Below are positions 4,895-33,731 of a stretch of 64,000 nucleotides of DNA, one piece after another. Position numbers and translations under genes: made by a program. The notes beneath the pieces were generated by a model that was given only the letters and a program-made list of their open reading frames with translations, had not been told where the DNA came from and did not search any database. Each line of letters begins with the position of its first letter. The first letter of the stretch is position 1. The stretch comes from Bolinopsis microptera (taxonomy: Eukaryota > Ctenophora > Tentaculata > Lobata > Bolinopsidae), in contig NC_087072.1 of assembly GCF_026151205.1 (NCBI RefSeq), positions 6,992,084-7,056,083 of the forward strand, read 5' to 3'.

Positions 4895-6837
4895 ATATTC
4901 TAACATTTGATTTTGAACAGTTCATCGACCACTAGTGGGGATTCGGTGATTAATGCAGTGTAATAATTATAATTTGATACCATACTTTTGTTAATTACGT
5001 AATTTATAACGTTAGATGTTAGTGGTTTGATCGCTATATTTTCATCGTCGTAAGACTTTGATAGCATACTATATCAGTTTAGTTTTAATCAAGAGACATT
5101 GACATACGATGATTTATCATTTGTTCATAGAATTTTAGCTATTTAAAATTCATGTTTCGAATTTATAGTGTTTCGATTATTGCAGAATGGCTGCATAACC
5201 TGTAGTTGTGGACTGTTATAGTAACCAATAATCTAATGCATAAATGATAAAAAATCAGCCATTTGATCGGTGGTCTGATTTGTCATGTTATTCTGCCAAT
5301 GATAAAGCATAAATTTGACTGTTATGAGTTTAGAGTTATGAATTGTCTGGGATAGGTATTACATAATAACCTGGATCCCCATCTTGTCTTTGATTTTTGG
5401 TTTGGTTTTGTATCGCCGAAGACACAACTTGTCGCATAGCTCGACCGGAGGTCAATACAATGTTGTGATGTGGGATAAGCTCAATGTGCTATTAAATATC
5501 CGATACAATTCATACTTCATACTCTTGAGACATCAAAATTATTTGTCAATATCTTCTAAATAAGTTAATTTTCGGATCAAGCGCGCGGCACGCATAAACA
5601 CACGTGTATGCGCTGTGTCCAACACACACAATGACACCGCGTGGGCACGTATGTAAAAGATTTAATATTATTGGGTTCCTTTCATAGCAACTACTGCAAT
5701 CATTATTTACCAAACACCGAACCACTCTAAAACGGTCAGATATAGATGGGGGCCAGCGTGCCATAAATATTGAGAATAAATTGCCTCTATTAATAGATTA
5801 TATTTCAAGGTCTGGGCATTCGCATTTCGCATCCATTCCAACTCCTGTCGGAATTTCTCCAAAATTGAATTAGTGAAAGGTGAACGTGTCTTATCTATAT
5901 CTGATTGCGAGTAAACCAGTAATTTTGCAAATGCTTACCCCATTTGCACTGACTGCACTAGAATCTAATTCTCGTAAAACTGATGACACGAGCCAAGATC
6001 AATTACCAAGGATATCAGTCGCGTAATTAGAATTCAGGATAATCTTTCGCTGGGAAAATCACATGTATTTAAAATTTCAACGTGTCTAATGTCTATTCGA
6101 TCTAAGTAACGACAAAGCCAACGGAATTCAGACAATTCAGCAATGTTTGTAAAATGCACTCTAAGACCTTAACTTTATGGTTGAAGGGATCGCACCAAAG
6201 TCTAGACATTTTCTCTTACGTTTCATTATCATGTTTAGAGTGGCTCACTAATTACATGTATACATTAACCATGTTGAAACTGTTGGAGATGTGCGCACCC
6301 AGTATTACTTCTTTAGCCTTGATTCGCATAATAATAGGTATGGTACGTTTGACGTGAAGAATGTTTACAGTAAAAGACCAAGAGTAAATAAAATAACCAA
6401 AAGTCAAAACTTGCTTACCGAGGAGAGATGAAAGTACACGTGATTCTAAAAGTAACTGTACTGTACAGATGGTTGAACTTATTGATTACACGTTGACTGT
6501 TGACTGGGGTTTGTTTTGCAATATCTTAAGCCGCTATCATAATATGTCTGGGCAGTATATTGGGACACAATATTTAAAGTAAACCGGTGGTCTATATTTC
6601 TATTCAATAATTCACGTTAATAAATATGTATGTAAACCGGCGGTTATTAATGAAAGTATTCATGAAGGATATGCTAATTGCTAGCATGTTTACCAAACTA
6701 TTTTGATGAGCATTGTAAACATCCGCTTATAATTAATCCCTAATTTACATTACTAGCAAACTGCAGTATTGCTAAATGTTATTGAGGGGTCGGGTATCTA
6801 CTACACAACCTAATTGAGGGGTGCCTGCTGACACTGT
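4895..6837. other. Intergenic, no gene seen
   Basis: AT-rich sequence downstream of the RING gene. Short open frames here have no signal, domain or splice context. No repeat structure stands out. Confidence 0.6.
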
Positions 6838-7068
6838 CTACTCTACGAGTGGGGCGGCTACAGCTGCACTCCACACTTCTCCAGGAGGTAGCACTCTGTC
6901 ATACTCCACCAGGTGTTGTGCGTGCTGTTCTCTCTGATAATAACAACAGATCACTGCTAATCACTCAATTATACTCATTTCACGGTGTTTTAATACCTGG
7001 AATGTTGAGCTGTACTTGTACTTAGCTTGTGTGACCACTCCCTTCTCAAAACTTTTAGTGTTACTCAT
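6838..7068 (-). CDS. Putative small two-exon protein, 55 aa
   Basis: Exon 1 (7068-6997) encodes MSNTKSFEKGVVTQAKYKYS and four more residues and ends at CAG|GTATTA. Exon 2 (6933-6838) follows ATTATCAG and encodes REQHAQHLVEYDRVLPP and further residues to TAG, ending APLVE. Phase is 0 and the short intron is 63 bp. The composition looks coding and the splice signals are good, but I do not recognise the family. The size and basic N-terminus would fit a small structural or ciliary protein, which is a guess only. Confidence 0.4.
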
Positions 7069-7735
7069 TACTACAAAACCTGGAGTGCGATCACACTCGA
7101 GTAGAAGAGGAAATCAGACATGTCTGATAAAACAGGAGTACAGATAGAAGACCTGTGAAGTAACCAGAAACCTATCTGTTGCTGAAACCTACCACATGTG
7201 ACCGGTGAACTAAAGCACAGCTCCTGTGTACCAAGTAAGATAGTGAGAGTACATCTCGAGTGTCAACAGGGTTATTATAGGGAGACAAACACTCAAACAG
7301 ATCCTTTAATAACATAATTACTTTGATTAGTACACTTAGTTAATACACCTAGCTACTTTAATTAGTGTCACATGATCAATAATCACAGACATGAGATTGT
7401 GTTGAATTAGTGCACACTCACATGCGAGGCTACTGGGACTTAATTTAGACCTTATTAGCGTTTGCTTTTGAAAGTTCAGGCTGATTTGAGAATTCTAAAA
7501 CTTTTTGAATGAAGTGGATAGTACGAGTATTGAATGAAATAGAGCCCATTGGACGATGGACAAACTAGTGAAGAAGACAGAATACGCATGCAGATTAACT
7601 TTTTCGGTTGATTACGATGAAAATTATTGGTGGGTTTTGTACTTGTAATTATAACTACATTTAACCTTTATTCTAAATAACTGCTTTTATTGTCTGTGAA
7701 GTGTTCAACACAGTTGTGTTTCCCCGGAACTCACT

Positions 7736-7898
7736 AGTCACTATTGTTCTTGTCCGAACAGTTAGTGTTGAAATAGGTTACACACATACTTTCACTATTG
7801 TTCTTGTCCGAACAGTTAGTTGTGAAATAGGTTACACACATACTTTCACTATTGTTCTTGTCCGAACAGTTAGTTGTGAAATAGGTTACACAAATACT
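7736..7898. repeat. 53-bp tandem repeat, three copies
   Basis: Three consecutive copies of a 53-bp unit containing ATTGTTCTTGTCCGAACAGT and ending in GGTTACACACATACTTTCAC. Copies 2 and 3 are almost identical. The open frame through it simply repeats with the array. Confidence 0.85.
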
Positions 7899-8255
7899 TT
7901 AAGAGTCAAAACCAATGAGATGCGCTGCTTTACAATGTGATGAAAAGGTATTGATTATTGAAGCTAGATAGCTATGTCCAATACAATGTGACAATGTTGT
8001 ATAGTCATTTTGGCAGTTGCCAAAATGACATTTTCGGTCATAGTCTAACACTTTATTACAACAATGAATCGGTGGACACAGTAAAGATAGACGCCTGATA
8101 AGAAAGGACCGTGAAGAAGGACGGAGAAGAATACGAAGGGAAGACGGAGCAACAGATGAGCAGAGGAGATCGCGAGAAGTGGAGCCCTAATGGCAATAGA
8201 CTTGAAACTGTTTATATTCTGATCTTGATTAACGTTGGTTTCTATATTTTAAGTT

Positions 8256-8335
8256 GAGGGGTCGTTCACATATTACGTAATCAGCTGAGGGGGGGGGGGG
8301 GGGGACCGGGGGTTCCGAATTATTACGCTAGTGTA
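8256..8335. repeat. GTCGTTCACATATTACG terminal motif next to a poly-G run
   Basis: AGGGGTCGTTCACATATTACG at 8258 resembles the terminal inverted repeat of the MITE at 60015-60435 (AGGGACCGTTCACATAATG). An 18-nt G run follows at about 8287. No matching right end was found, so this is probably a truncated copy. Confidence 0.5.
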
Positions 8336-9427
8336 ATTTTTACACAATAGCTATGTGTAAAACTGATTACACCCAAACACCTCTGTTTTGGGGAGCAGAG
8401 AGTTCATTTTAACATCTCTGTTTTGATTATCAGAGGGTTCATTTTAACACCTCTGTTTTGGTTACATACAAGGAGGATAGTTTAGGAATTGTTTAGAGAT
8501 TGCTAGAGAGAGTGGGAAATTGTTTATACTATATGGGGATACTTAGGAGTGGGCCTATTGGATGGCAGGTTACCCTTTTTGGTTTTAGTACAGCAGGAGT
8601 TTATAGTTGGAGAACTAGGAAATCTAAATTTATGGGAGATTATATAGAGGAACATTGAGACATTGTAATTGCAATTCTTAATCACGTATTCAATTTGAAG
8701 TACTTTCCCTTGCCACCTTCCTGAACCAAATTGTAAGGAAAAGACCGTTTTTATCAACAATAAAGTATTGAAGCTGTAGCCTGTATCGTGCTCCAATACA
8801 ATGATATGATAACGTACATTTAAACCTGGAGCAAAGTTCAATCTGAATGATGAGACCTGGAAGAGATGGTAATTTCACATTGAGAGGAGTGTCTGACTAA
8901 TGAGGGGGGAGCACGTGTTTACTGTCATGTTGTACACGCACTGACTGCTCTGTGAGGCTCGTTAACAGCTCTGTGAGGCTCGCTAAAGGGACATGAGGGA
9001 CGAGCTTATAATGGGGGCTAATGTTCGTGAAAATAATGACACGATGCAGTCCGAATACAAGGTGTATATAGTTGGTGTATTACACTTGGTCGCAGTGGAG
9101 TTGTGAGCAGCAGAAACTGTAAATGCATCTCTTTCTCGGGCATTAATCTAGACATTATTGGACACTGAACAAATTTTCTATGCCGAACATTGGGGTCAAG
9201 TTTAGAGCAAAGATGCCGGCAACGTTCCGGTATTCTAAACCACCAGGAAATGGACTTTACCCCCACATACCAATAATAATGGGATAACGATAGTACAGGA
9301 TGGTATCAATACCGTGTACAAATGTAATTACAGTGTACAAATGTAATTACATTGTACTCTAATTACACTGTAATAACTTAATTGCACTGTATTCTCTTAT
9401 TAGACCCAGGGGAGGGAGCAGTTTCTA

Positions 9428-18587: not shown

Positions 18588-20104
18588 ATTTCTGATGAGG
18601 AGAGACGTCTCACTCTGCTGATTGGAAGCAATAATGTAGCCAAAGCGATGAGATGTGTTGATGTATTCTGTAACTACTGTCTTGCAGTATTATAATCCAA
18701 TGTTCCCAGCCACCTTTATAAGTAGTCTGACATGGGTTAACTGGCTGAAAATTTGTTTATAATATTAATACAGTTGGATGTCCTCCCTTACATTAACAGA
18801 ATTCAGATAAATAAGCATAGTCGATGTGTGTTTTAAAAATCAACATCAAAACACTTCAGATGTTTGACTTATCCCTCGTTGCTGGTTTGTTCATGACCCC
18901 AAATTAATCAGAACCCAACGAAATTGATCTATTTGTATATCATTACATCTCTAAATCATTCCGAATTATTTATAAATTATTCGGAATTCTATTTAATCAA
19001 CTTTCAAAATTATCCTCAGGATTACGACTATCGTTGAATACTATAAAAAAAGTTGTATCCTATTCAAAGTGTAAAACAAAATGGTACATTCAGGATACAT
19101 TCAATCAAATCGAGTGATGCAATTGACACCGGAAACAGAAATGGTCCATTGCTTCCAGGATTAATTTGAAATCTTTATAATATGTTCATCTATTTTGATT
19201 GAAATAAATTTTCGTGCACATACAGAATGAATGGTTAATAATTTAATATATATGTAGACCAAGCTCTGTGCACGGGATGCTTCCTGGAAGAATCCAGTTC
19301 TTTTAGCGGGGCACCCTACCTAAAGCCAAATTGAGATATAATAATCATATTCCTAGAGAAATAATCAGAAATCGAATACCAATCAAATAATATGATATAT
19401 ATGAGTAGTAACCATATTTACTATGCAAAATGCCCCAACCACATAGTGTAAATTTATATAGAATTCAAATTCCATATCATCATTAAACCTCAATACCTAG
19501 TCAATATAATAGCCCAAGCAAAATTAAATAACTTCTTATATACCTTACTGTCATACTACAAATTAATTAAACATTTGAAATCTGTTGACCAGAGAATAAA
19601 TTTCTAAGCCTAATGCAAGTGAAATAATTTAGATGCAATAATGAATGCCTAATGTGAGTATCATTTGTCAACGTCCTTGAAAAAAGTCTGTACAAGAGAT
19701 ATGAGTAACTAATATAGAAGAAAAGAAAAAACAGGAAGTTGTCGTCTGTTGTAAAATAAATAAAATATCTAGAATATAAATTAGAATATAAAATAACATT
19801 CAGTCAATGTGTCGTCAATAAACTGTACAATTATCAAATGTTAAAACTGGGTGATACAGTCACCAAAAAAAATACTAAGTATGATAAGTTAATAAATTAA
19901 ATGTGGTCTATAAAACTACCACTAAGTATAATAGGTCAATAAATTAAAAGTGGTTTATAAAACTACCACTGTGGGAACCCCTTCTCCAGTTAAAACATGT
20001 CAGTCATGTGCAAAATCAATCAGAATGGTAAGGTGGTAAAAAAGGGAATATCTTTTCGATACATCAATTATATATGCCTCAGATTTAAAAGAATTAGAAG
20101 TTAC
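18588..20104. other. NHE8 upstream region, no gene seen
   Basis: AT-rich sequence between the NHE8 start and the LINE. It should contain the NHE8 promoter and the 3' UTR of the LINE, but I cannot place either precisely. A near-duplicate pair (ACTAAGTATRATARGTYAAT followed by a GTGGTYTATAAAACTACCAC segment) occurs at 19875-19970. Confidence 0.5.
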
Positions 20105-22375
20105 TTAGTTATCAGCGACTATGATTGCAGTGTAAAATTTGTCATATGAATTGTCGACGGTATAATTAGGGTCTGTTGTTATAGATGATAGTAGCTGTTT
20201 CTTATACGAATCACTAAAGCTTTTAACATCGGGCAGATTTCGTAGATCTGTTGGAACATTATTCCAACATTTTGCCCCCAAGTATTGAAAGTTTTTATGT
20301 GATGTTGATCTATTGACATAAAGGTTGCAGCTTTCGCCGCTCCTACTACCTCCTGATGTGTAACTAAATTTGTTCATAAAGTTTGTAGGACAATTGTCAT
20401 GGATGATTCTAAACATATAATTTGACAGATGAAGTTGTCGTCTAAGATGGAGTGGTAACCATTTCATGTCTCTATAAACATTAAGGCTGCTCTCTGTTTT
20501 TGGAACGTTGAGAGCTATTTTGGCTACCTTTTTGTACAGAGTGTCAAGTTCAGCAAGTTTTGTCTTGCCAGCTCTACAATAGATCGTGTCTAAATAATCG
20601 AATTGTGGCAACATGAGTGCATTGGCAAACATTTTCCTATATTTAATGGGTAGCAGTGCTTTACTTCTATACATGGCACCAATTCTCTTCATGACCTTCC
20701 TAATAATATAATCTACATGGCTTTTGAAGTTTAATTTACTATCTAGAATGAGGCCAAGATATTTTGTCTCTTTGCACTCCTTGATTGTGAAAGTTACCTC
20801 ATTACAATCAATCGTTATTTCATCATGTTGGTCAACAGAATCAAACAATAGGAATTCAGTCTTCTTTTCATTGAGTGATAATTTATTAACACTGAGCCAT
20901 TTAAAGATTGTCATAAGTTCTATTTTCATGTTTATAAATGTGCTTCTGCAGGTTTGATCAAAGAATAGTGCACCATCATCTGCAAATAGAAAGGGCTTAG
21001 ATAGGTTACAGGCATAAATGATGTCATTTATGAAGATACTAAATAATATAGGCCCAATGATGCTTCCTTGTGGTACACCACTCAGAACTTCTAAAAATGA
21101 GCTTAGATTGCCATTGATCCTAGTGCATTGATATCTACAAGATAAGAAGTTCTTAAACCAGGTTAAAGCAATGCCACCAATTCCATAATATGCCAATTTT
21201 TGAAGCAATATTTCATGATTCACTGTGTCAAAGGCCTTCTTAAGATCAAGAAAGATGATTCCTGGTTTATAAGACTTAGATTTACTCATATATATTTCGT
21301 CCATCAGATCGTACATCAGATAAGTTGTGGAGTGATTTTTCCGAAAGCCATATTGATGCCGGATGAAAAGTTTGTTCTCTTCCATGTAATCAGTGAGTTG
21401 CTTGCCGACAAAGTATTCTATAAGTTTTCCTACAAGTGGAAGGATGGATATTGGCCTGTAATTATTAGGATCATCTTTCATTCCTGCCTTATGGATGGGA
21501 GTTACTCTAGCTTTTTTACAAAGGGTTGGTACAACACCTGTATTAAGGCTCAGATTGACAATGTGGGTCAGTGGCTCAACTATGTGTGGTACAGCTTGCT
21601 TAAGTAAAAATAGAGGCACATTGTCATATGAGGCCTTGTCATTCTTGAGCGTTTCGACATACATTAGGATATCAGTTTCATTTATTTCTTGGAATCTATC
21701 AAATGAGATATTAGAAGTTCTAGGAGGTAAAAAATCAGTAAAACTAACTCTTTCAATATTGGGGGCCTGATTTTGTAATCTTGATCCAACATTTGCAAAA
21801 TGAAAGTTAAATAGCTCAGGATCATTCTCATTGATAGTTTGACAATTAGTTGTACCAGGGGTCATATTTGATGCCAGTTTGATAGTTTTCCATATCCCTT
21901 TAAGATCATTCTTGGCACTTTTAACTTGTAGATCATCGATTACATTAGCCTTTTTGCAGGTTTTAGCTAATTTATTTCTAATATTTCTCTGAATCTTGTA
22001 GCAATCCCAGGCCTCATTACACTTTATACATTTGCTACATGTACCACATTTATTGCAATTTCCATTGTCTCTCTTATCCTTCTTTTTACGGAATTTTTTT
22101 AGAAGAAAATGTGTATGATTAATGGCATTTAAAAGTTCAGTAGAAGGTTTATGTATGAACTTTTCATGCTTTTCTATGGTCTTGCAAGGGAAGAAGGTTG
22201 CATATGCCTGTTCAATATGATGACAAAGGCCAGCAGTGATAGCTTCAACATCTGTACTTTCCAATAGTGGACTGTAATCAGAACAGGTATCTAGATAGTC
22301 TAAGAATTGTTTAACATTACGTTTACAATAATTTCTAATTTCAACCTTCTCAAATTTAGGAGCTATAGGCACTGT
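20105..22375 (-). CDS. LINE reverse transcriptase, C-terminal part of ORF2
   Basis: The open frame runs to 22480, but its first ~35 codons lie in the inserted foreign sequence. Native sequence starts near VPIAPKFEKVEI. A compact Cys cluster CNKCGTCSKCIKC lies at about residue 140. RT motifs follow: NNYRPISILPL, HQYGFRKNHST, FLDLKKAFDTVNHE, SGVPQGSIIGP (~470) and the catalytic FADDGALFF (~500), with F in place of the usual Y. The thumb and C-terminal region end with NLYVNRSTSHKNF and KCWNNVP, typical of CR1/jockey-like ORF2 tails. No stop or frameshift is seen in the RT, so this part may be recent. The function would be target-primed reverse transcription, but the ORF2 protein is broken by the insertion. 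Confidence 0.9.
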   Translation of the reverse strand, partial: TVPIAPKFEKVEIRNYCKRNVKQFLDYLDTCSDYSPLLESTDVEAITAGLCHHIEQAYATFFPCKTIEKHEKFIHKPSTELLNAINHTHFLLKKFRKKKDKRDNGNCNKCGTCSKCIKCNEAWDCYKIQRNIRNKLAKTCKKANVIDDLQVKSAKNDLKGIWKTIKLASNMTPGTTNCQTINENDPELFNFHFANVGSRLQNQAPNIERVSFTDFLPPRTSNISFDRFQEINETDILMYVETLKNDKASYDNVPLFLLKQAVPHIVEPLTHIVNLSLNTGVVPTLCKKARVTPIHKAGMKDDPNNYRPISILPLVGKLIEYFVGKQLTDYMEENKLFIRHQYGFRKNHSTTYLMYDLMDEIYMSKSKSYKPGIIFLDLKKAFDTVNHEILLQKLAYYGIGGIALTWFKNFLSCRYQCTRINGNLSSFLEVLSGVPQGSIIGPILFSIFINDIIYACNLSKPFLFADDGALFFDQTCRSTFINMKIELMTIFKWLSVNKLSLNEKKTEFLLFDSVDQHDEITIDCNEVTFTIKECKETKYLGLILDSKLNFKSHVDYIIRKVMKRIGAMYRSKALLPIKYRKMFANALMLPQFDYLDTIYCRAGKTKLAELDTLYKKVAKIALNVPKTESSLNVYRDMKWLPLHLRRQLHLSNYMFRIIHDNCPTNFMNKFSYTSGGSRSGESCNLYVNRSTSHKNFQYLGAKCWNNVPTDLRNLPDVKSFSDSYKKQLLSSITTDPNYTVDNSYDKFYTAIIVADN

Positions 22376-22873
22376 GTACGGGTCCTCTTTGGTGACAAAG
22401 AGGCATACCTTAACAAGTTCCTTACATGTGCAAGAACAAGAGAGTTTGACAGCCAGGCACTTGACCATACATTCTTCCAACTAGAGCACTGTAAACCACT
22501 TTTCAAGCAACAAAACATCCTGGCTTTCAAAAATTTATATACATATCACACATTTATGGAAGTTTTTAAAATACTAAAACTAAGGTGCCCAGCATCACTG
22601 CAACAGCATTATCAGTCATCTTTTAGAAAGGAAACCACTATCATTTCACAACTCCCATCTAATGACTTTATATCAAGATCCACCAAAATTTGGAACACAA
22701 TTGCACCTAAACTTAAGCTCTTTGACTACTCCTACAAGATTAGCCTTGCTAAAAGTCGCCTGAAAAAGGCACTTCTAAAGCTGCAACATGCTTATAATGA
22801 TTCGGCATGGACCACAAGCGATTATGACATAATGCAGCTGTCATTTGAAAACAATCCCCTTCATCAAATTTAA
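22376..22873 (+). pseudogene. LINE ORF2 C-terminal fragment
   Basis: The frame carries RVLFGDKEAYLNKFLTCAR, LEHCKPLFKQQNIL, LYTYHTFMEVFKILKLR and SRSTKIWNTIAP. These are the conserved C-terminal blocks downstream of the RT thumb in one group of invertebrate LINEs. There is no RT core, so it is a 5'-truncated remnant. The Met at 22307 lies outside the element. Confidence 0.8.
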
Positions 22874-23590
22874 TCCAGTGATCTCGGCCCACAGGCTCCT
22901 CCTATTAAACAAATTTGATTTTGGTAAATGTGTGCTGACTCCACCACCTATGTATTTAACCTAATATTTAGTGTATTACAGGTAGAAATTGACTTAGGTA
23001 GGTATTTTTCTCTTAGGTAGATATTAAGAATTTGGTTAATTTCTTAATTGTATGACTATTTCCATTACTGAGACGTTTTTAATATTTAATTTAGGAGGGT
23101 TTTGAAATTTTTATAGGACTGGTTCACAGAGTGAACAGATTCCAGATTTATATATTTTTAAACTGATATTTAATAAATGATTAAAAGAACAAATTTTAAA
23201 GTTGCCATTAGATCCAAAAACACACCCATTATGCTCACTTAAACACAACTCTAAATCAGTAGGCTGTCACTCTATTAATGCACCACACCGATACCTCCAC
23301 TCCTTGTAGGTTATAAAATAAATTCCAAAATCCTAATTTTGTATCGTGATGGAGACCGGTGTTCATACAAAACATTTACTAGGTTGCCGTTTGGTGTGAG
23401 CAATAGCGAACAGCACGCACACTCCTTTGCCCCGTCAACCTATATCTAATCTATTTAAAGAGTGACAACCATACTGCCCATTGAATTAGGATTCTGTTAA
23501 ATATCAAATTGATTTATTGTAAACTTGTTTAATCTGTAATAAATGGCATAAAATTGAAATTTTTGTTTAACTGAAATTTTTGTTTAACTG
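22376..23590 (+). mobile_element. 3' end of a second LINE inserted in opposite orientation
   Basis: A 5'-truncated fragment carries the last ~165 codons of a LINE ORF2 and about 0.7 kb of 3' UTR. It ends in a duplicated GAAATTTTTGTTTAACT unit at 23552-23588. Its insertion separates endonuclease from RT of the host LINE. ACTG occurs at both junctions (22370 and 23587), but a target duplication is not clear. Confidence 0.75.
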
Positions 23591-24300
23591 ACTTTACAAT
23601 CTATCTCACACATAATAGCTTGATGATCTCCAATACGTTCATCAAGAACAGAAGATTGGACAAAATCTGCATAACAGTTAGTGAATATTACATCAATAGT
23701 AGTCTGGGTAACATTGTCTCCACGTTTAGCAACTCTAGTTATCCCTTGAATGGTTTGAACTAGATTGTAACATCTCAAGGTCATATCTAATTTTTTGTAC
23801 TGGGTGGATGAGATATTATTCTGGTCAATGTTTATATCCCCAATCCAGATAACCTTTTTCCCATTCAATTTTTTCATGCAAAAATGAATGTATTCAATAA
23901 AGTTATCAACACTGCAATAATTTCCAGAGCGATAGAAGCAGCAAACATTGATCTTGCTATTCTTAAGCTTCACCCATAATGCTTCAATGTTATCAAGCTT
24001 ACTATCCATAACTAATTCTGTGTAAGCTAGTTTTTTGTTTATCATTAAGCCACAACCACCCCTAGAACTGTTTGGCCTGTCGCATCGCATAAGGTTGAAG
24101 GAGGAAGGAATATTTATGGTGTCTGTGTCAATAGTATCATTAAGATTCATCTCATTTAGGGAAAGTATGTCTAATTTATGATCTCTAATAAGTTGAGAAA
24201 GTTCATTACTTTTAGCTAAATTGAGAAGCCCTCCTTGAATGTTACAATGACCAATGCAGAGGTTGTGAAACCTATCAGCTGCATTATTAAAATTTGTCAT
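23584..24300 (-). CDS. LINE AP-like endonuclease, N-terminal part of ORF2
   Basis: 238 codons with the exonuclease-endonuclease-phosphatase fold signature: N-terminal IGHCNIQGG, LDILSLNEMNL (catalytic Glu), GGCGLMINKK, VIWIGDINID (GDxN-type block), DVIFTN and the terminal ERIGDHQAIMCEI (xDH catalytic block). It stops within about ten bases of the junction with the inserted fragment, so the original ORF2 continued into the RT now at 22375. Confidence 0.9.
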   Translation of the reverse strand: MTNFNNAADRFHNLCIGHCNIQGGLLNLAKSNELSQLIRDHKLDILSLNEMNLNDTIDTDTINIPSSFNLMRCDRPNSSRGGCGLMINKKLAYTELVMDSKLDNIEALWVKLKNSKINVCCFYRSGNYCSVDNFIEYIHFCMKKLNGKKVIWIGDINIDQNNISSTQYKKLDMTLRCYNLVQTIQGITRVAKRGDNVTQTTIDVIFTNCYADFVQSSVLDERIGDHQAIMCEIDCKVS

Positions 24301-24455
24301 CTTGTGAATCTTATTAATTCACAATGGAATGAATAAAAGTTGTAAAGTTGTGTTTAAACTAAAAAACAGAATAAAAGCAGGTTGTATTTGTCTGGATGTC
24401 GTACTGTAAAAATAAAACTGATGGTAGGAGTGTTATGTCAGTATTCAGCAGTATT

Positions 24456-25883
24456 CTAATGGTGTGCATGATACTTCAAGTGCCTTGCTAATTTAACTAT
24501 GCCATAATCATTGAGATGGACATTATCCTCTCCATAACTACTAAAAAATGACGATTTTCTAAAGCCTTTCTTATCACTAAACAAGAAACGATTTGTCTCG
24601 GTTGAGAGCAGTTTTACATAGGTGTATTTTCTTTGCAGATTTGATATACACTCATTGATATCAGTTATAACCTTGTTTCTGGAGAAACTCTCCCGAGGTA
24701 ATAAGTTAACAATTTTAATATCAGCTCCAGGTGCCCACTTGTGAAGGAAAAGTACAAGTTTTTCAATACAATTGTTTGTAAAGTCAAGAGCTCTAGCATC
24801 ACAAGAAAAACTATCAGGGCACAGAAGTTTAGTCCTCATGTTGCGAGGGCTGTTCAGGATAGAGTCCACGTCATTTGTACCACACATAAGTACAATGCTT
24901 TTCACATTATTGGTATTAAGAGTGTCTTTTCTTACATCTGATTGAAACCGTTCATTGATTGCATTGGCTGTGGCACCAGGGTAGCTGAATACATGTGCCT
25001 CATGATGTTTGGACGATAGCTTTTCTCCCTCTAATTTGGAGAACATACTAGAGCTAATGTAGACACACAAAGATTTACCAGAATGTTCTATTGATCTAGT
25101 CTTAGGGGCCGAGGGTTCAGTGTTCTTAACTTGACTGGAAACATCAGACAGAGTAGATAAGGTTGCGCTGCCATCAATTAGGCGCAGAGTAATGCTTATT
25201 CTCATGGTTTCAGACTTGTCCTGGATGAGGCTGTGTTCAAAGCTGGTCTGGGATTGTCTGGTCATATTCATTATGTCACCATGGGAGAGGGTGAGGTCAG
25301 CAATATGAGCTCTAAGTTTGGATCTGAAGCTTAGGACTCTAGTAGCCCCTAAAGAGATGGTGGAGATCATGGAGCCTGGTGAAATTGACCTCTCGTCATC
25401 CGAGTGAAAGGGAATTCCTTGCTGACCATTTCTATACTTGGTAATCATAGCACTATTGAATTTCAATTTTGGGAACTGTGAGCGTAAGCGTTCTAAAATA
25501 GACTTTAGGTATGGATTGTCTGCTACTGGCCTTGTGTTATGAAAGCCTCCATTGTAAGCGTAGGGAAAGTCCCCGTAATATGCAACTGCCCTATTCTCAA
25601 ACTTATGAGTATAGTGGGTTTCTATATCTAACTTGGCAGTGTCAACAAACTGAAAAACTCCTCGACTCAAATCTTGGTATGGATTGATAGAGTTGGTCAC
25701 ATCATTGTCACCATTTACAGAGTGTTTGGGATTTTCCAAATTGATAATTTCTGCTGAATGTTCACTGTCTTCTGCTGATTTGGATAGCTCTTGGGTTAAC
25801 TCAGAAACAAGATGCGAGGATGACCTATTACTGAGGGGAACATTGATAGACTGTTCACAGTGATCAGGTACCTGGGGCAACAC
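24456..25883 (-). CDS. LINE ORF1: AlkB-like dioxygenase fused to SGNH esterase
   Basis: 475 codons from the first Met; the frame is open for about 35 more codons upstream. The N-terminal half is an AlkB-type 2OG-Fe(II) oxygenase: KYRNGQQGIPFHSDDERS (HxD, about residue 161), the distal His in SFEHSLIQD (about 218), and RISITLR (about 228), which matches the RxxxxxR 2-oxoglutarate-binding motif of AlkB. The C-terminal half is an SGNH/GDSL hydrolase: SerI block VYISSSMFSKL (about 275), LMCGTNDVD (about 336) and DNVHLNDYG (about 456, the Asp-His block). All key residues are present, so both activities are plausible. AlkB enzymes remove alkyl adducts from nucleic acids; SGNH esterase is known from CR1 ORF1. 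The role in the element is unknown. Confidence 0.85.
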   Translation of the reverse strand: MLPQVPDHCEQSINVPLSNRSSSHLVSELTQELSKSAEDSEHSAEIINLENPKHSVNGDNDVTNSINPYQDLSRGVFQFVDTAKLDIETHYTHKFENRAVAYYGDFPYAYNGGFHNTRPVADNPYLKSILERLRSQFPKLKFNSAMITKYRNGQQGIPFHSDDERSISPGSMISTISLGATRVLSFRSKLRAHIADLTLSHGDIMNMTRQSQTSFEHSLIQDKSETMRISITLRLIDGSATLSTLSDVSSQVKNTEPSAPKTRSIEHSGKSLCVYISSSMFSKLEGEKLSSKHHEAHVFSYPGATANAINERFQSDVRKDTLNTNNVKSIVLMCGTNDVDSILNSPRNMRTKLLCPDSFSCDARALDFTNNCIEKLVLFLHKWAPGADIKIVNLLPRESFSRNKVITDINECISNLQRKYTYVKLLSTETNRFLFSDKKGFRKSSFFSSYGEDNVHLNDYGIVKLARHLKYHAHH

Positions 25884-25990
25884 AGGGATAAGTGAACCAT
25901 TGCTGAGGGGAACTTTGAGTGCACTGTCACTTTCTGATAATTGTTTATAGAGAAAAGAAATTTGCCGACGAAGACTATCATGTGTCTCAA

Positions 25991-26155
25991 AACAAATATA
26001 AATAATAATAATAATTTCAATGAATGAAATGAGGTATTTATATCCCGCTCATATGATTAACCAACAACACAAGGAAGAGGTTAACCATGTCAGAGCGGCT
26101 GACATAAAGTTCAGGACACAATAAAACCTGAAACTTACTTACTTACTTACTAAAG
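25991..26155 (-). repeat. (ATT)n tail and 3' UTR remnant of another retroelement
   Basis: Read on the minus strand, the segment has TTTCAGGTTTTATTGTGTCC, then GCGGGATATAAATACCTC, then ATT repeats abutting ORF1. A short ACTT/AAGT run lies at 26138-26153. The order UTR then microsatellite is what the 3' tail of a LINE or SINE looks like. The source element is not present. Confidence 0.45.
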
Positions 26156-27099
26156 TGTATGCAATATCAAGTCAATAAAACAAATAATCAATATCAATAA
26201 AACAAATAATCAAAGTTTTAGCACATTTTACAGCATAAAATTTAAACAAATGAAAACATATAATGCTCTTAGTGGTAAATGGCCGTTTGTTCTGAGCTGT
26301 ATGGTTTTTTGACAATCAACTGGCGGGGCAAGGAATGTACTGGCTGGTAGCTTTTGTACACACCAGAACGCTAGTCTGGTTGATTAATGACCAAATTAGA
26401 GGCGTTGATAGATAGGCATTATAATTTGTGGATGTAAGAGGGAATATTTGGCATGCACTATTCTAGCAGCTATTTTGTAACAAATGGTCTTTACAATTAT
26501 TAAGGACGGTAAGTATTTTGGGTGTTCAATACTAAATCATGGCTAAATGTCTAAGTGGGGGCCGGGGGTTTAAATTTAGGGGAGGAAAAAAATGAATATT
26601 GGGTTATAATATTAATCATAGATGTCAACCCTGATATAACTATTGTACTAAAAATTTGATCATAATGCTTAGGGTCTTTATTAGAATTCAAATTTGATAC
26701 AAAAAAAAATAGGATCACTTTACACTACACTTACTCACTCACACAGATCACATTTAACTTTACAGAGGAATACACTGGCAGAGTAAGTCGATTTGGTCAT
26801 GAAATTTTGGAGGTCAGGTGAAATATATTGTATGTACTGTCTACTGTTTGATCCCTGCAGGAGCCTACGAAATTTTAAGGTTCAAGGTTACAAATATCAA
26901 GTGTTGCCAGAAATATCCAAGCAATGAATTATATGAAGGTACAGGTGTTATACCATTTACCAAGAATACTAATCATAGCTGAGCACACTTTTAGTTCTAA
27001 ATAACGTATCATCAAGAATAGCAGACAGTATTCATTTAATCTACGAATGAGAATCTTATAGGATTTCGGGAATGAAAGTTTGGAAAGTAGCCCCTCAAA

Positions 27100-27490
27100 A
27101 TCTTTGTATCACGTTGCGACCCCCACGGTCGTTTCACTGTATCGTCCTGACGATACAGGGGGAGCCGCGCACTTCGTGCGCGGCGGGTCATACAACGTAT
27201 GACAAAGCTCGGTGAGGCACAGTGGTGCATCTCGCCGATCTACCGAGAAGAATTATTTGATGCGCGGCGGGACCCAGTAGTGCATCGCGCTACAAGGTCC
27301 CCAGGTAAAGATTAGGCGGAATTTGACGGATGTTACTCGTCTAAATTTCTTCGAAGTATAAGCGCGCGCCGCTTTCTTCTCGAAATGGCCCGATGGCAAG
27401 TGCTACGAAGTAGAACGCGCCGGGCCTGATCATTAGCAGTGGTCAAGGCGGAATGACAGACTGAGTGCCGCCCAGTAAGACATAGCCCGA
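27100..27490. repeat. GC-rich palindromic repeat block A
   Basis: GC-rich sequence in an AT-rich setting. GCATCTCGCCGATCTACCGA and the following CCCAGTAGTGCATCGCGCTAC return as reverse complement at 29356-29480. TCTAAATTTCTTCGAAGTA through CGCGCCGGGCCTGATCAT (27339-27436) returns in the same orientation at 48938-49027. The block starts with three back-to-back hairpins (separate entry). Confidence 0.7.
27138..27203. repeat. Three consecutive perfect hairpins
   Basis: Hairpin 1 (27138-27157) has 9-bp arms TGTATCGTC/GACGATACA; hairpin 2 (27165-27183) has 8-bp arms CCGCGCAC/GTGCGCGG; hairpin 3 (27187-27203) has 7-bp arms GTCATAC/GTATGAC. Loops are 2-3 nt and spacers 3-7 nt. Confidence 0.85.
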
Positions 27491-27555
27491 GGCAAGTGCT
27501 ACGAAGTATTTATATTGCGCGCCGAATCAGTCCATTTGATTGACGATGTCAATCC

Positions 27556-27806
27556 GTCGAGATCGACGAAGCAAGAATGCTAGTTCGTGCGGCGCGTCGA
27601 AGCGGCAAAGTCCTCCAATTAGTCCATTAACAATGAACAAGCAAAACTTTAATGTAAGCTCTAACTATGCCACAAAATGGAATTTTATTGCCGTTCATCA
27701 TTTACGGGTGATACTCGTAAAGTTGAAAGTATTTACAATTTACTTTGTTTCAAAACCGTCGCGTCGACGAGTGATCCAACTCGGCGCGCGTCTTGGTAGG
27801 TTATGA
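27556..27806. repeat. Dispersed modules: GATCGACGAAGC and GGGTGATACTCG types
   Basis: GATCGACGAAGCAAGAATGC to AAAGTCCTCCAA (27557-27617) recurs at 48423-48479. TTTACGGGTGATACTCGTAAA (itself a hairpin) and the linked CAACTCGGCGCGCGTCTTGG (27700-27800) recur at 38528-38605, with the second half reversed at 28070-28110. Confidence 0.75.
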
Positions 27807-27846
27807 ACCTATAACGTTCATCAACCATCACACATCAACGCCAAAC

Positions 27847-27918
27847 TTACCTGAGGACCCCAGGCTATTATGTTCATTAACATTGGGCGGATTTGACAGG
27901 CTGAGCGCGGCCCAGTAA
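27847..27918. mobile_element. 72-bp MITE, TTAC(C)TGGG ends, 8-bp TSD
   Basis: The element reads TTACCTGAGGACC...GCGCGGCCCAGTAA. It is flanked on both sides by the perfect 8-bp duplication CGCCAAAC (27839-27846, 27919-27926). Same family as 49696-49776 and 43294-43369. Confidence 0.9.
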
Positions 27919-28146
27919 CGCCAAACATCAAACATTGATTGAATTAAAATAGTTGGAATGTGGCATGGAATTTATATAATGTAAAAATCCTCACAACGTA
28001 GAAATCAGTGTCACTAATGATATTATGGTTTTGTATCATGATTAAAACAATTGTCTGACTTGTAGGTTTACAAACTACCAGGACGCGCGCCGAGTTGGAC
28101 TCGTCGACGGTCAATTTCACATAGCCATGTGTATACGCGTACTGCG

Positions 28147-28258
28147 TGACGCGCTTGTTTCACAAGTAGAATGTACGCGCGCTACTGCAAGCGAGAGGGC
28201 GCTGGTTAGAGAGCCCTTTCGCTTGCAGTAGCGCGCGACCACCGAACAAGCGTGTCAC
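28147..28258. repeat. Long foldback element with nested stems
   Basis: Inner arms of 24 bp (28177-28200 and 28213-28236; GCGCGCTACTGCAAGCG...) differ at one base around a 12-nt loop. Outer arms GTGACGCGCTTGTT and GAACAAGCGTGTCAC enclose them. The left part, preceded by TTTCACATAGCCATGT, recurs at 48314-48375. Confidence 0.85.
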
Positions 28259-28543
28259 TAGTATATAAAAGAAAATCTTCAGATAATTGCAAACTGATTG
28301 ACAAACTAAACCATCCCTCATCAGAGTGGTAGTCATGACAGGACCATGTTACTTTGATATTAAGTAAAGCTAACATCTTTCGCTAGGGTCTTTAAACGAA
28401 GTAAATGTCGGGCAGCTAAATATAAACAAGTGTAGACAACTGGACGATTGTTAAAAAATGTCGTACGAGCAATCGAAAAGGTCATCAAAATATATTTTAA
28501 CTACAGGAACAACATAAACATGAAGGAGGTACCGATGTTACTG

Positions 28544-28812
28544 TGCATTTTATTTTATATATTTTGTATATTTTATATATTTTATATATTTTGTATATTT
28601 TATATATTTTGTATATTTTATATATTTTGTATATTTTATATATTTTGTATATTTTATATATTTTATATATTTTATATATTTTGTATATTTTATATATTTT
28701 GTATATTTTATATATTTTGTATATTTTATATATTTTATATATTTTCTATATTTTCTATATTTTATATATTTTCTATATTTTCTATATTTTCTATATTTTC
28801 TATATATTTCAT
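28544..28812. repeat. 9/18-bp TATATTTTG-TATATTTTA array
   Basis: About 30 nine-base units alternate TATATTTTG, TATATTTTA and, at the right end, TATATTTTC. Because nine is divisible by three, frames encoding Ile/Tyr/Phe/Leu/Cys repeats stay open; these are not genes. Confidence 0.95.
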
Positions 28813-29355
28813 ACTAAAAAATGTATATTTTTTCGAAAGTGCTATATTTTTTATTAGTGGCCCTCCTCGTACACCGTAATTGCCATGTTACAATGAATAA
28901 TAACATCATAATAAAAATAGTTAAACTTTAACATCCGATAATAAACTCGTGAAAATTAGATATGCGATGTAAAATACGTTTTTTACTTTATACCCGAAAA
29001 TTAATCTCAATCATAAATTTCTATATCAGCGCGGTGCTAGTCACGTATTGTTATGACGGCGCCGAACCTAAACTAATGAATTCGAAAATAATATAAAATT
29101 CTAAATCAGAAGTTAAAGTTATTCTACAAATATTTCATTACATTAACTTACTTGGATTAAAGACGGCTGGCAAAAGGAACCAGTTGCCTGTAAGAGCTTT
29201 ACTAGTACCCGAAATACCGTTTCTAAAGCACCACCCCAAGCCCGATATCAGCTGAGCACAAACGTATAAATTGTTTCAGGATTTTCACAACAAATCAGCT
29301 TGTTCATACTAATACTATTGAATATCGCTTATTAGGATGTAAAAGTTTTGATACA

Positions 29356-29480
29356 TAATTTGTAGCGCGATGCACTACTGGGTCGCGCGCGCGCATCCAA
29401 TAATGCTTCTCGCAACCACAGAGATCGTATGCAGATCGGCGAGATGCGAAGGATTGACATCGTGAATCAAATACATAATA
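29356..29480. repeat. Inverted copy of repeat block A
   Basis: Reverse-complement similarity to 27190-27295 over GTAGCGCGATGCACTACTGG, GCGCGCATCCAATAATGCTTC and CAGATCGGCGAGATGC. It has diverged at several positions. Confidence 0.7.
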
Positions 29481-29854
29481 TATAATATAATACACGTCAA
29501 AAGGTTAAGTGTCTAGTATTTGTGTTTGTTATTATTAAGTTCGATTGAAATATATGCTTAAAACACTACTACATGTTGTAAACAACAAAATATTTACAAA
29601 ACAAAACGACTGGGACACATAAAGGAGAAGAACAACACATCACACGGACGGAAACTGCTGCTGAGTTGACGAGTATCTGATTGTATTAATTAAGAGAGTT
29701 ATGTGAGGAGGGGTCCCACCAAAAGATCAAGAATCTTACCCTTCAGTACATTCCATGTTTTTGTCTCATTGAGTACATCTACATTGTAGTGTAGTGTAAA
29801 AATATAGTGCTATACTATAATATTATACTATAATATTATTATACTATACTATAA

Positions 29855-30053
29855 CAGTGGTGTAATGTTGCCTGTTATGTTGGCGCTCCTGCTGAAAAAG
29901 TGCCCCCTGTTGGCGCTCCCTCACTTTTGGCGCCCCTCCCTTAAATTGGACAAATTAGGTGATTTAGAGGATACGCAGGTAAAATCTCTAAAAAAGTGTG
30001 TCTCTAGAGCAAAATGCACAGCCGGGTCAGCGGGGCCCTTCGTTACGCCACTG
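29855..30053. mobile_element. hAT-type MITE, ~199 bp
   Basis: Starts CAGTGGTGTAATGTTGCC and ends GTTACGCCACTG. The interior (TTGGCGCCCCTCCC, AAATTGGACAAATTAGGTGA, CTCTAGAGCAAAA) matches the 31237-31556 copy. It sits in a TATAC microsatellite, so the target duplication cannot be read. Confidence 0.8.
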
Positions 30054-31740: not shown

Positions 31741-33731
31741 CTATTTCAAAAACTTCCCAGTGGAATAAAGATTTATAAAACGCTTCTTTGCCACATAAGG
31801 ATGGAACCAAAGATAATTGTTATGTTTCTCTTTATTACTGACATAACTGGCTCCTTCAATTCTTACTAAAACTTCATTAGAAACATTCCAAAAAAAGCAA
31901 TCATTTGTAGTACTTTTAGAAATCATATCTTTCTTAAATCCTTCTAATTTAATTTTAAAACCTAAAACTGTCACAGAGTTCTTGACGTCCGGAGGGAGTT
32001 TGTTCCAATATGGAATAACTCGCTCCGGGAGAAAAGACTTCTGGATATTCTTGACCTTTGTCACACTTTTACTACATCTATTGGATGAAACCAGATTAGG
32101 ACCTGATCTGCTTGGTCTGAACAAGTCTGAACCATAATCAGTCATACCATTAATAACCTTAAAAGCTTCAATAAGGTCCCCACGTATTCGCCGCTCTGCC
32201 AGCGTTGTCAAATTGAGGATTTCCAGTCTACGGCTGTAAGGAAGAGTACCCACCTCATCAATCAGACGGGTAAACCGCCTCTGGACGCTCTCCAGCTCCA
32301 AAAAAATCCCCCAACTTCCATGAGCCGCAGGTTGATTCCACAATTGGACACAATACTCAAGATGAGGTCTTATTAAAGCTTTATATATAGCAATCATAAC
32401 AACCTTTTCTCTAATAACTAAATTCCTTACAATCCAACAAATCATACGATTTGCCTTAGTGATACATCCTTTGATCTGTTCATTCCAAAGCAGGGAGCTA
32501 TGGGTAATAACCCCCGAATCTTTTTCCTGTGCAGATACTTCAAGTTCTATACCATTTACATTATAATTTAAATTAGGATTGTTGTTAAAATTAATGTGCA
32601 CTACTTTGCACTTGGCAGGATTAAATTGTAATTTAGCCAAATACTTTCCCAAACTTCTAATTCTTCGATATCTTCAGCAACACTACCGTGGTTAGCTGCA
32701 TTACCAATTAATTTAAGATCATCAGCAAATAACTTTATCTTATTTTTTACAAGGTCAGGCAAATCATTAATATACAGAATGAATAGGAGAGGGCCCAGAA
32801 CTGACCCCTGAGGAACACCAGATAAAACATGTTTAACCTCGGACCATTGTCCTTCTACAGAAACCCTCATAGTCCTGTCTGTCAGAAAATCTTTAATAAC
32901 ATCTAAAACCTTTCCTTTGACACCAAAGCCTTCCAATTTAGACAGAAGTCTAAAGTGGGGGACTGTGTCGAACGCCTTACTAAAATCAAAGTATAGAAGA
33001 TCAACCGGGGCACCTTCATCTAAAATGTCAAGAATGTCATCAAATGTCTCTAAAAGATTAGATAAACACGATTTACCCTTAACAAATCCATGCTGATGCT
33101 TCGAAATTCGATGTTCTAGAAAATTTAATACATGTGCTCTCACCAACTTTTCATACACTTTGCACAAAATACAAGTTAATGAAACTGGTCTATAATTTAA
33201 GGGGTCCGATTTAATACCCTTTTTAAACAATGCTACAACAGATGCAGATTTCCACACTGCAGGTAAAGATCCTGTATCTGAACACTTTTGAAATAATTTA
33301 GTTACTGCTTCAACAAAATTGTTGTCATAAGCTAGCGATTTCAACAACTTCGGATGAACACCATCCGGACCAGAACTCTTAAAAATGTTAAGCTTTAAAA
33401 GTTGCTTTTTTATATCAGAACTGCTGACTTCCATATCATCAATATCATCAATACTCTCATTGTCAGGTCTTAAATTCTCAGTTTTAGGGAGAGGGCCAGG
33501 TGGTTCACGCACGAAAACAGGGCTAAAGGCACTTGCGAGTACCTCAGCTGACTCAGTCGAACTATCTGTGCGTGTACCATCTCCTCTATCTAAAGAAACC
33601 ACACTTGATTTAACTTGACGTTTATTTTGTAAATAAGAGTAAAAAGACTTACAATTATGCTTCAGATTAGATGTAATTTTCTTTTCATAGTTAACTTTAG
33701 CTTTAATTTCTGCTACTTCATAAGTGGGCAC
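31741..33731 (-). pseudogene. CR1-like LINE reverse transcriptase, frameshifted
   Basis: The upstream frame (33731 to about 32601) has SSGPDGVHPKLLK, LNYRPVSLTCILCKVYEK, HQHGFVKGKSCLSNLLE, YFDFSKAFDTVPH, SGVPQGSVLGPLLF and the catalytic FADDLKL. Near 32650 the frame changes, and a second frame (to 31741) continues with LQFNPAKCKVVHI, IRPHLEYCVQLWNQ and the CR1-type tail RVIPYWNKLPPDV. The joint lies just after ELEVW, where one or a few bases appear lost or gained. The endonuclease and ORF1 are missing (5' truncation at about 33731). The 3' UTR runs to about 31580 (ATTTATGACATCACATGATC). A second fragment of the same family is at 55757-56075. Confidence 0.9.

Follow-up and report, generated by a model that had tools for sequence, protein, structure and literature searches.

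An ORF1 protein joining an AlkB-like dioxygenase to an SGNH esterase in a young LINE family of Bolinopsis microptera, with the same pair in other LINE groups and a Helitron

Long interspersed nuclear elements (LINEs) of the CR1/L2 lineages can carry a type IV first open reading frame (ORF1), in which a zinc finger/leucine zipper region is joined to a C-terminal SGNH esterase with Ser-Asp-His and an oxyanion Asn, followed by an ORF2 with endonuclease (EN) and reverse transcriptase (RT) (excerpts of PMC4120745 and PMC3905857). In zebrafish, the LINE ZfL2-1 encodes an esterase that is active as an SGNH hydrolase and binds phospholipids; CR1, RTEX and Penelope elements are also reported to carry esterases (excerpts of PMC3905857). 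Here we describe a LINE of the ctenophore Bolinopsis microptera, located in a 64,000-nucleotide stretch of contig NC_087072.1 (assembly GCF_026151205.1, positions 6,992,084 to 7,056,083; the whole stretch is called the window), which shares with type IV elements a Cys motif (by eye), a long helix, a C-terminal SGNH domain and an EN-RT ORF2, but in which an AlkB-like dioxygenase sits between helix and esterase. Type IV ORF1 was reportedly also treated by Kapitonov and Jurka in 2003. The words “AlkB” and “dioxygenase” have no occurrence in the main text of PMC4120745.

AlkB domains have been described in other mobile genomes. A Phalaenopsis orchid Ty3/Gypsy element likewise is a retrotransposon with a catalytically intact AlkB, there an ALKBH5-like N6-methyladenosine (m6A) demethylase in a separate extra ORF of an element with long terminal repeats (LTRs) (excerpts of PMC9289625). 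The Bolinopsis domain differs from it in being fused into a non-LTR ORF1, in resembling ALKBH2/3, in its pairing with SGNH and in its presence in several LINE groups and a Helitron. The replicases of plant Alpha-/Betaflexiviridae and Closteroviridae also hold AlkB within a protein of a mobile RNA genome, and gave structural matches in BFVD; these domains lie in RNA virus replicases, and the named plant-virus rows among the 50 matches listed are 15-20% identical in aligned columns. Full-text searches, with subscription papers mostly outside their coverage, yielded no description of AlkB in a LINE ORF1 or a Helitron among the matches listed. Reviews of AlkB evolution may mention links to transposons. 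A known LINE layout and known enzyme families thus meet in a combination for which we found no description, and the element would be the first LINE type (and, with the Helitron below, the first Helitron type) known to us with an AlkB dealkylase of its own.

The fused ORF1 protein and its young family

An earlier note, made from the letters of the window, had proposed an AlkB-SGNH fusion in one ORF1 frame beside an apurinic/apyrimidinic (AP) endonuclease and RT. None of the outcomes that it named as refuting this was obtained: AlkB has a profile match, its half of the protein is not confined to one copy, and its catalytic residues are conserved among relatives. Pfam confirms the fusion, with AlkB at 25173..25688 (2OG-FeII_Oxy_2, PF13532, E = 2.8e-19), SGNH at 24459..25076, the AP endonuclease in the 5' part of ORF2 at 23584..24318 (PF03372, 2.1e-8; native down to 23591) and RT in its 3' part at 20105..22373 (RVT_1, 4.8e-36), all on the minus strand. 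In the 518-amino acid (aa) piece of ORF1 that was scanned, the AlkB match covers residues 151-277 with 70.5 bits against a cut-off of 31.2. The SGNH assignment of the note stands on a Lipase_GDSL_2 match (residues 334-504) and the presence of the catalytic Ser (25047-25049), Asn (24873-24875), Asp (24525-24527) and His (24516-24518), while the score itself (22.7 bits) falls under the cut-off of 32.9. The limits of the AlkB domain were set by a custom hidden Markov model (HMM) whose training set contains the window sequence. Within them lie HSDDE with the iron-binding HxD (25392..25406), the distal iron-binding His (25233..25235) and the RxxxxxR motif RISITLR (25182..25202), whose Arg we take to bind 2-oxoglutarate. 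A long helix is predicted N-terminal to AlkB (residues 35-64 of the intact frame, 25920..26006, placed by alignment from an AlphaFold2 model of the ORF1 of the intact copy L044), and may form a coiled coil.

The profile score above the curated cut-off, together with HxD...H...RxxxxxR, places the domain in the AlkB/2OG-FeII_Oxy_2 superfamily. The solved structures nearest to the window ORF1 by sequence are human ALKBH2 (4.3e-13) and ALKBH3 (2.5e-11), a predicted-structure search with the AlkB domain also matched ALKBH2/3, and the sequence matches to ALKBH2/3 (1.3e-25 and 5e-23) compare with 0.002 for the m6A eraser ALKBH5. Profile scores and structure matches together rule out a chance ORF or motif coincidence. 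Human ALKBH2 has a finger for double-stranded DNA with a VFGKW-type motif. This pattern was found in 0/78 aligned ORF1s, which does not support ALKBH2 orthology; it is visible by eye in the host gene L021. The window AlkB is described here as an ALKBH2/3-type dioxygenase fold, which would presumably act in dealkylation. The C-terminal SGNH domain with S, N, D and H agrees with a type IV ORF1, whereas the additional AlkB departs from the plain zinc finger/leucine zipper plus esterase form.

Conservation was assessed in an alignment of 78 ORF1s (L044, L026, L034 and 75 database proteins hand-picked from 120 listed, near-duplicates and fragments left out), whose rows are 29-80% identical to the first. 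All five AlkB iron/cofactor residues (H236, D238, H293, R304, R310) are identical in 78/78 of these chosen rows, as are S355, G379, N413, D529 and H532 of SGNH. Pairwise ratios of non-synonymous to synonymous substitution (dN/dS, NG86) are low in AlkB: 0.093 for L044/L045, 0.129 for L026/L034, 0.047 and 0.052 for pairs of LINE group C (below), 0.16-0.28 for four Helitron pairs and 0.20 for one group B pair (dS 2.7). The linker of L044/L045 gives 0.42. In SGNH, synonymous sites are saturated in three pairs; otherwise dN/dS is 0.13-0.15 (C) and 0.17-0.31 (Helitron). AlkB domains are under purifying selection. An N-terminal value of 1.07 for the window copy against L044 probably arises because the first codons of the window frame are foreign.

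The window element belongs to a young LINE family with many copies in the genome and is itself truncated at its 5' end. Two full-length copies in the same genome, L043 and L044, have the same 5' start, a 551-codon ORF1 frame with both domains and a 997-codon ORF2 frame, and are 99.3% identical to each other in an alignment of 5987 columns. The window copy matches both at 99.1-99.4% identity (99.4% for the 3' part of ORF2). A genome search with the SGNH half returned 30 rows, the window included, at 98-100% identity over all 214 residues; 29 of the 30 matches are stop-free, and 23 lie in open frames of 551-552 aa, one of these having a stop in the match. Full-length ORF2 is present in L024, L026, L028, L043, L044 and L045. 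The AP endonuclease and RT in ORF2 downstream of ORF1 (Pfam, window and L026), the dispersed near-identical copies and the 5' truncation identify the element as a LINE; its 3' end, which lacks a poly(A) tail, is only suggestive of CR1/L2-clade membership. In L045 (1027-5748), ORF2 is 97% identical to that of L044 at the aa level, while AlkB is only 83-84% and SGNH 67% identical, and the histories of ORF1 and ORF2 therefore differ. This mosaic agrees with the reticulate ORF1 evolution reported for Jockey-superfamily LINEs (excerpts of PMC4120745).

Relatives are also found among database proteins, at least 150 for the window ORF1 (E<=1e-3; 120 listed) and at least 42 for the ORF1 of group B (below), with ~8000 candidates scored in each case. 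A loose AlkB motif occurs in 118/120 and 41/42 of them, respectively, and the SGNH D-x-x-H motif in addition in 110/120 and 25/42, counted with a narrow search pattern. Relatives with a named organism are all from Mnemiopsis leidyi (P0061, P0154, P0155, P0162, P0165), and in the gene models P0154, P0155 and P0162 AlkB is joined to EN or RT domains. No relatives of the window protein were found in IMG/VR and GTDB contigs.

The AlkB-SGNH pair in other elements of the genome

The earlier note had not noticed that the pair also occurs in other LINE groups and a Helitron. A PF13532 search of the genome gave at least 151 matches (150 of 587 first-look candidates scored), and the DNA around 27 AlkB loci was analyzed: the window, L021-L040 (20 of the 34 best PF13532 rows), L043-L045 (picked via SGNH matches) and L047-L049 (picked by ORF-size class). 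SGNH stands beside AlkB in 24 of the 27. The two domains share a frame in 20 of these; the other four are broken copies in which SGNH lies in an adjacent frame (L035, L037, L038 and L039, in the last of which it is partial). Twenty of the 24 (L024-L040, L047-L049) had been chosen irrespective of SGNH. The near-identical copies, the database relatives and these other loci rule out a single chance AlkB-SGNH fusion.

The remaining three loci are solo host-like genes: L021 groups with human ALKBH2 in the tree, L022 matches ALKBH3 at 2.5e-39 and L023 is ALKBH3-like (1.6e-27). They share the fold and HxDDE...H...RxxxxxR with the transposon AlkBs but, like human ALKBH2 and ALKBH3, are solo cellular genes. 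They stand apart from the elements, and the AlkB of the LINE is thus not a host gene that happens to lie beside it. L022 (1553-3067) and L023 (2063-2950) pair in the tree, an apparent duplication.

The LINE loci fall into four groups. Group A, that of the window, has the order Cys motif/helix-AlkB-SGNH, and group B has PHD-AlkB-SGNH, the PHD being matched by Pfam under its cut-off in L029 and L040; L047 has a weak PHD-like match (0.038), and Pfam found no PHD in the stretch of L049 examined. Group C has AlkB, a long linker and SGNH in frames of 777-851 aa ahead of ORF2, and its RT shares 26% identity with the group A RT. Group D consists of L048 (AlkB-SGNH) and is called a LINE by resemblance only, because no ORF2 match lies within ~0.7 kb beyond its ORF1. 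In groups A, B and C an ORF2-like match follows ORF1 on the same strand in 19/19 loci, that of L040 being an 85-aa piece at the edge. L040 also has two AlkB frames head to head (1866-3674 and 6348-9235; 222 and 742 aa), adjoined by a reprolysin/ADAM17-like gene.

The SGNH and ORF2 models used for these calls were built from members of the same groups. Independent Pfam support for SGNH comes from L026 in group A (8.3e-6), L040 (6.3e-6) and L029 (0.0027) in B, L048 in D (9.1e-4), and the Helitron loci L025 (1.2e-6), L030 (5.2e-8; 34.0 bits, above the 32.9 cut-off) and L033 (8.1e-6). Only L032 in group C is matched, at 0.0079, and Pfam gave no SGNH match at the threshold used in L031 and L036 of that group or in L047 and L049; for group C, L047 and L049 the call rests on aligned S, N and D-x-x-H blocks because Pfam support is poor or absent.

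The Helitron (group H) resembles known Rep-helicase transposons, but its reading frame, given as 3388 aa, also encodes SGNH and AlkB on the N-terminal side. L033 (3383-9901) encodes, in one frame, SGNH, a Pro/Ala-rich stretch (by eye), AlkB, DUF6570 and Helitron_like_N; L046 (2-4501) adjoins it, stays open in the same frame and has Helitron_like_N and PIF1. Rep and PIF1 helicase in one protein identify L033/L046 as a Helitron. The genome has 41 Helitron_like_N matches (all 51 candidates scored), and six of them share a frame with an AlkB match (2225, 2459, 3226, 3321, 3366 and 3388 aa). SGNH precedes AlkB here, the reverse of the LINE order. The Helitron AlkB region has two matches among database proteins, P0165 (M. 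leidyi, 59% identical, weak GDSL 0.018) and P0166 (59% identical, GDSL 2.8e-12); no Helitron domain was found in these two protein models. Another Helitron locus, L025 (3303-9899), encodes a polyprotein with N-terminal SGNH and AlkB. The polyprotein region after PIF1, to which no Pfam model matched, may include an additional domain, perhaps a protease.

The AlkB iron/cofactor residues are also retained in groups B, C, D and H, and an alignment of 16 rows that includes groups B and C likewise keeps the AlkB residues. Among solved structures the Helitron AlkB is matched by ALKBH3 (9.6e-13), group C by ALKBH3 (1.6e-14) and group B by ALKBH2 (1.5e-4). In an AlkB tree of 30 hand-chosen rows, the transposon domains, including group C, split from human and host ALKBH2/3 with support of 89/80, which is not strong. 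On a further branch (97/93), group C lies closer to the host genes than the other transposon groups (A, B, D and H) do, and its AlkB may be a separate capture. The Helitron AlkB is nested in group B in the best tree (92/86); trees without this nesting stay unrejected (approximately unbiased test, p = 0.152 and 0.117), and in an SGNH tree with long branches the Helitron does not group with B. Domain order and trees suggest that the pair was assembled more than once. The AlkB-bearing elements of this single genome belong to several diverse families, of which one is young.

Possible functions of the pair

LINE mobility requires reverse transcription of the element's RNA, and Helitrons are believed to transpose via single-stranded DNA. 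Methylation of A at N1 or of C at N3 prevents base pairing. AlkB takes such groups off DNA and RNA (excerpts of PMC7968990), and one ALKBH2/3-type enzyme could serve both kinds of element. We favor, with moderate confidence, a role in template repair for the helix/coiled coil-AlkB-SGNH ORF1 protein of the young LINE family. The protein would coat element RNA as an oligomer, and AlkB would oxidatively strip Watson-Crick-face N-alkyl groups (lesions or marks of the 1-methyladenosine/3-methylcytidine type) from the single-stranded template, so that RT does not stall; the Helitron AlkB would do likewise for that element's single-stranded DNA intermediate. SGNH might anchor the complex to a lipid or another acyl substrate, or license it there. 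The recurrence of the pair with intact active sites suggests that removing marks or damage from nucleic acid aids element spread, and the demethylase-encoding retrotransposon of the earlier note is supported to that extent, its activity and substrate being inferred. Because AlkB is also present in a DNA transposon, a role confined to element RNA is less likely.

Several points weigh against template repair. An AlkB fold does not fix the substrate: m6A and proteins, too, are targets of enzymes with this fold. Pfam scans recognized no RNA-binding domain in group A or C ORF1s, domain placement in the AlphaFold2 model of the L044 ORF1 is uncertain (pTM 0.48), and the AlkB dS values of the pairs from groups A and C (1.05-1.6) approach saturation. 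A repair role also leaves the repeated pairing with SGNH unexplained.

A possible, though less probable, function is the erasure of a host mark that flags transposons for silencing (m6A on RNA; N6-methyladenine or another N-methyl on DNA). The AlkB of the orchid Ty3/Gypsy element is an m6A demethylase in vitro, and the study describing it proposes that it counteracts control by the host at the RNA level (excerpts of PMC9289625). Presence in both LINEs and a Helitron would fit a common host defence, but such marking of transposons is assumed, and by the E values above the AlkB sequence resembles ALKBH2/3 more closely than ALKBH5, the m6A eraser. Broader, and in our view improbable, is the idea of AlkB and SGNH as a two-enzyme cassette that can be reused and was assembled more than once, which would strip a host-placed or damage-derived modification and counter an undiscovered nucleic-acid-based ctenophore defence, possibly one using alkyl or acyl groups. 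Slightly less credible again is a passenger or structural domain, with AlkB captured as a nucleic-acid-binding fold and its catalysis irrelevant: no RRM or CCHC was found in the scanned ORF1s by Pfam, so AlkB might be the binder, but the identity of five iron/cofactor residues in all 78 relatives, and their persistence in B, C, D and the Helitron, speaks against this. An artefact, an isolated chance fusion or contamination has a negligible chance, the window copy being broken but intact ORF1-ORF2 copies lying on different contigs and the database relatives of both groups coming from other sources, four listed ones named M. leidyi.

The template-repair role, like erasure of a mark, would make these elements a testable case of Watson-Crick-face methylation, or a host methyl mark, limiting transposition, to which unrelated kinds of transposon would respond with the same enzyme pair. 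The pairing may also shed light on the repeated occurrence in mobile elements of esterase domains, whose function in ORF1 is still debated.

The window copy and its surroundings

The ORF1 frame is open from stop to stop over 24456-26048 (minus strand, 530 codons), of which 24456..26006 is native. The copy starts at ~26006, without the 5' untranslated region (UTR) and ~the first 35 of the 551 codons of intact copies; the extra N-terminal codons come from a SINE-like (short interspersed nuclear element-like) repeat on the plus strand (26019..26103; at least 40 matches, 40 of 383 candidates scored) that adjoins the truncated end. A TTAC-type simple repeat follows it. ORF2 is split by a nested 1217-bp insert in opposite orientation (22374..23590), which matches, at 93% identity, the ORF2 3' end plus downstream sequence of L029, a PHD-AlkB-SGNH LINE of group B. 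The 3' UTR (19195..20104) ends at window position 19195 in TTTATTTCAATCAA, an end common to the window copy, L044 and L045; L043 agrees up to TTTATTTCAAT.

Rfam at its gathering threshold gave no match in window 19000-30000. Other LINE pieces lie at 31741-33434, with an RVT_1 match (3.7e-27) at 32601-33434 on the minus strand. By eye, a tandem repeat with a TATATTTTGTATATTTTA-like unit occupies 28550-28810, and an inverted repeat surrounds ctactgcaagcgagaggg at 28170-28240.
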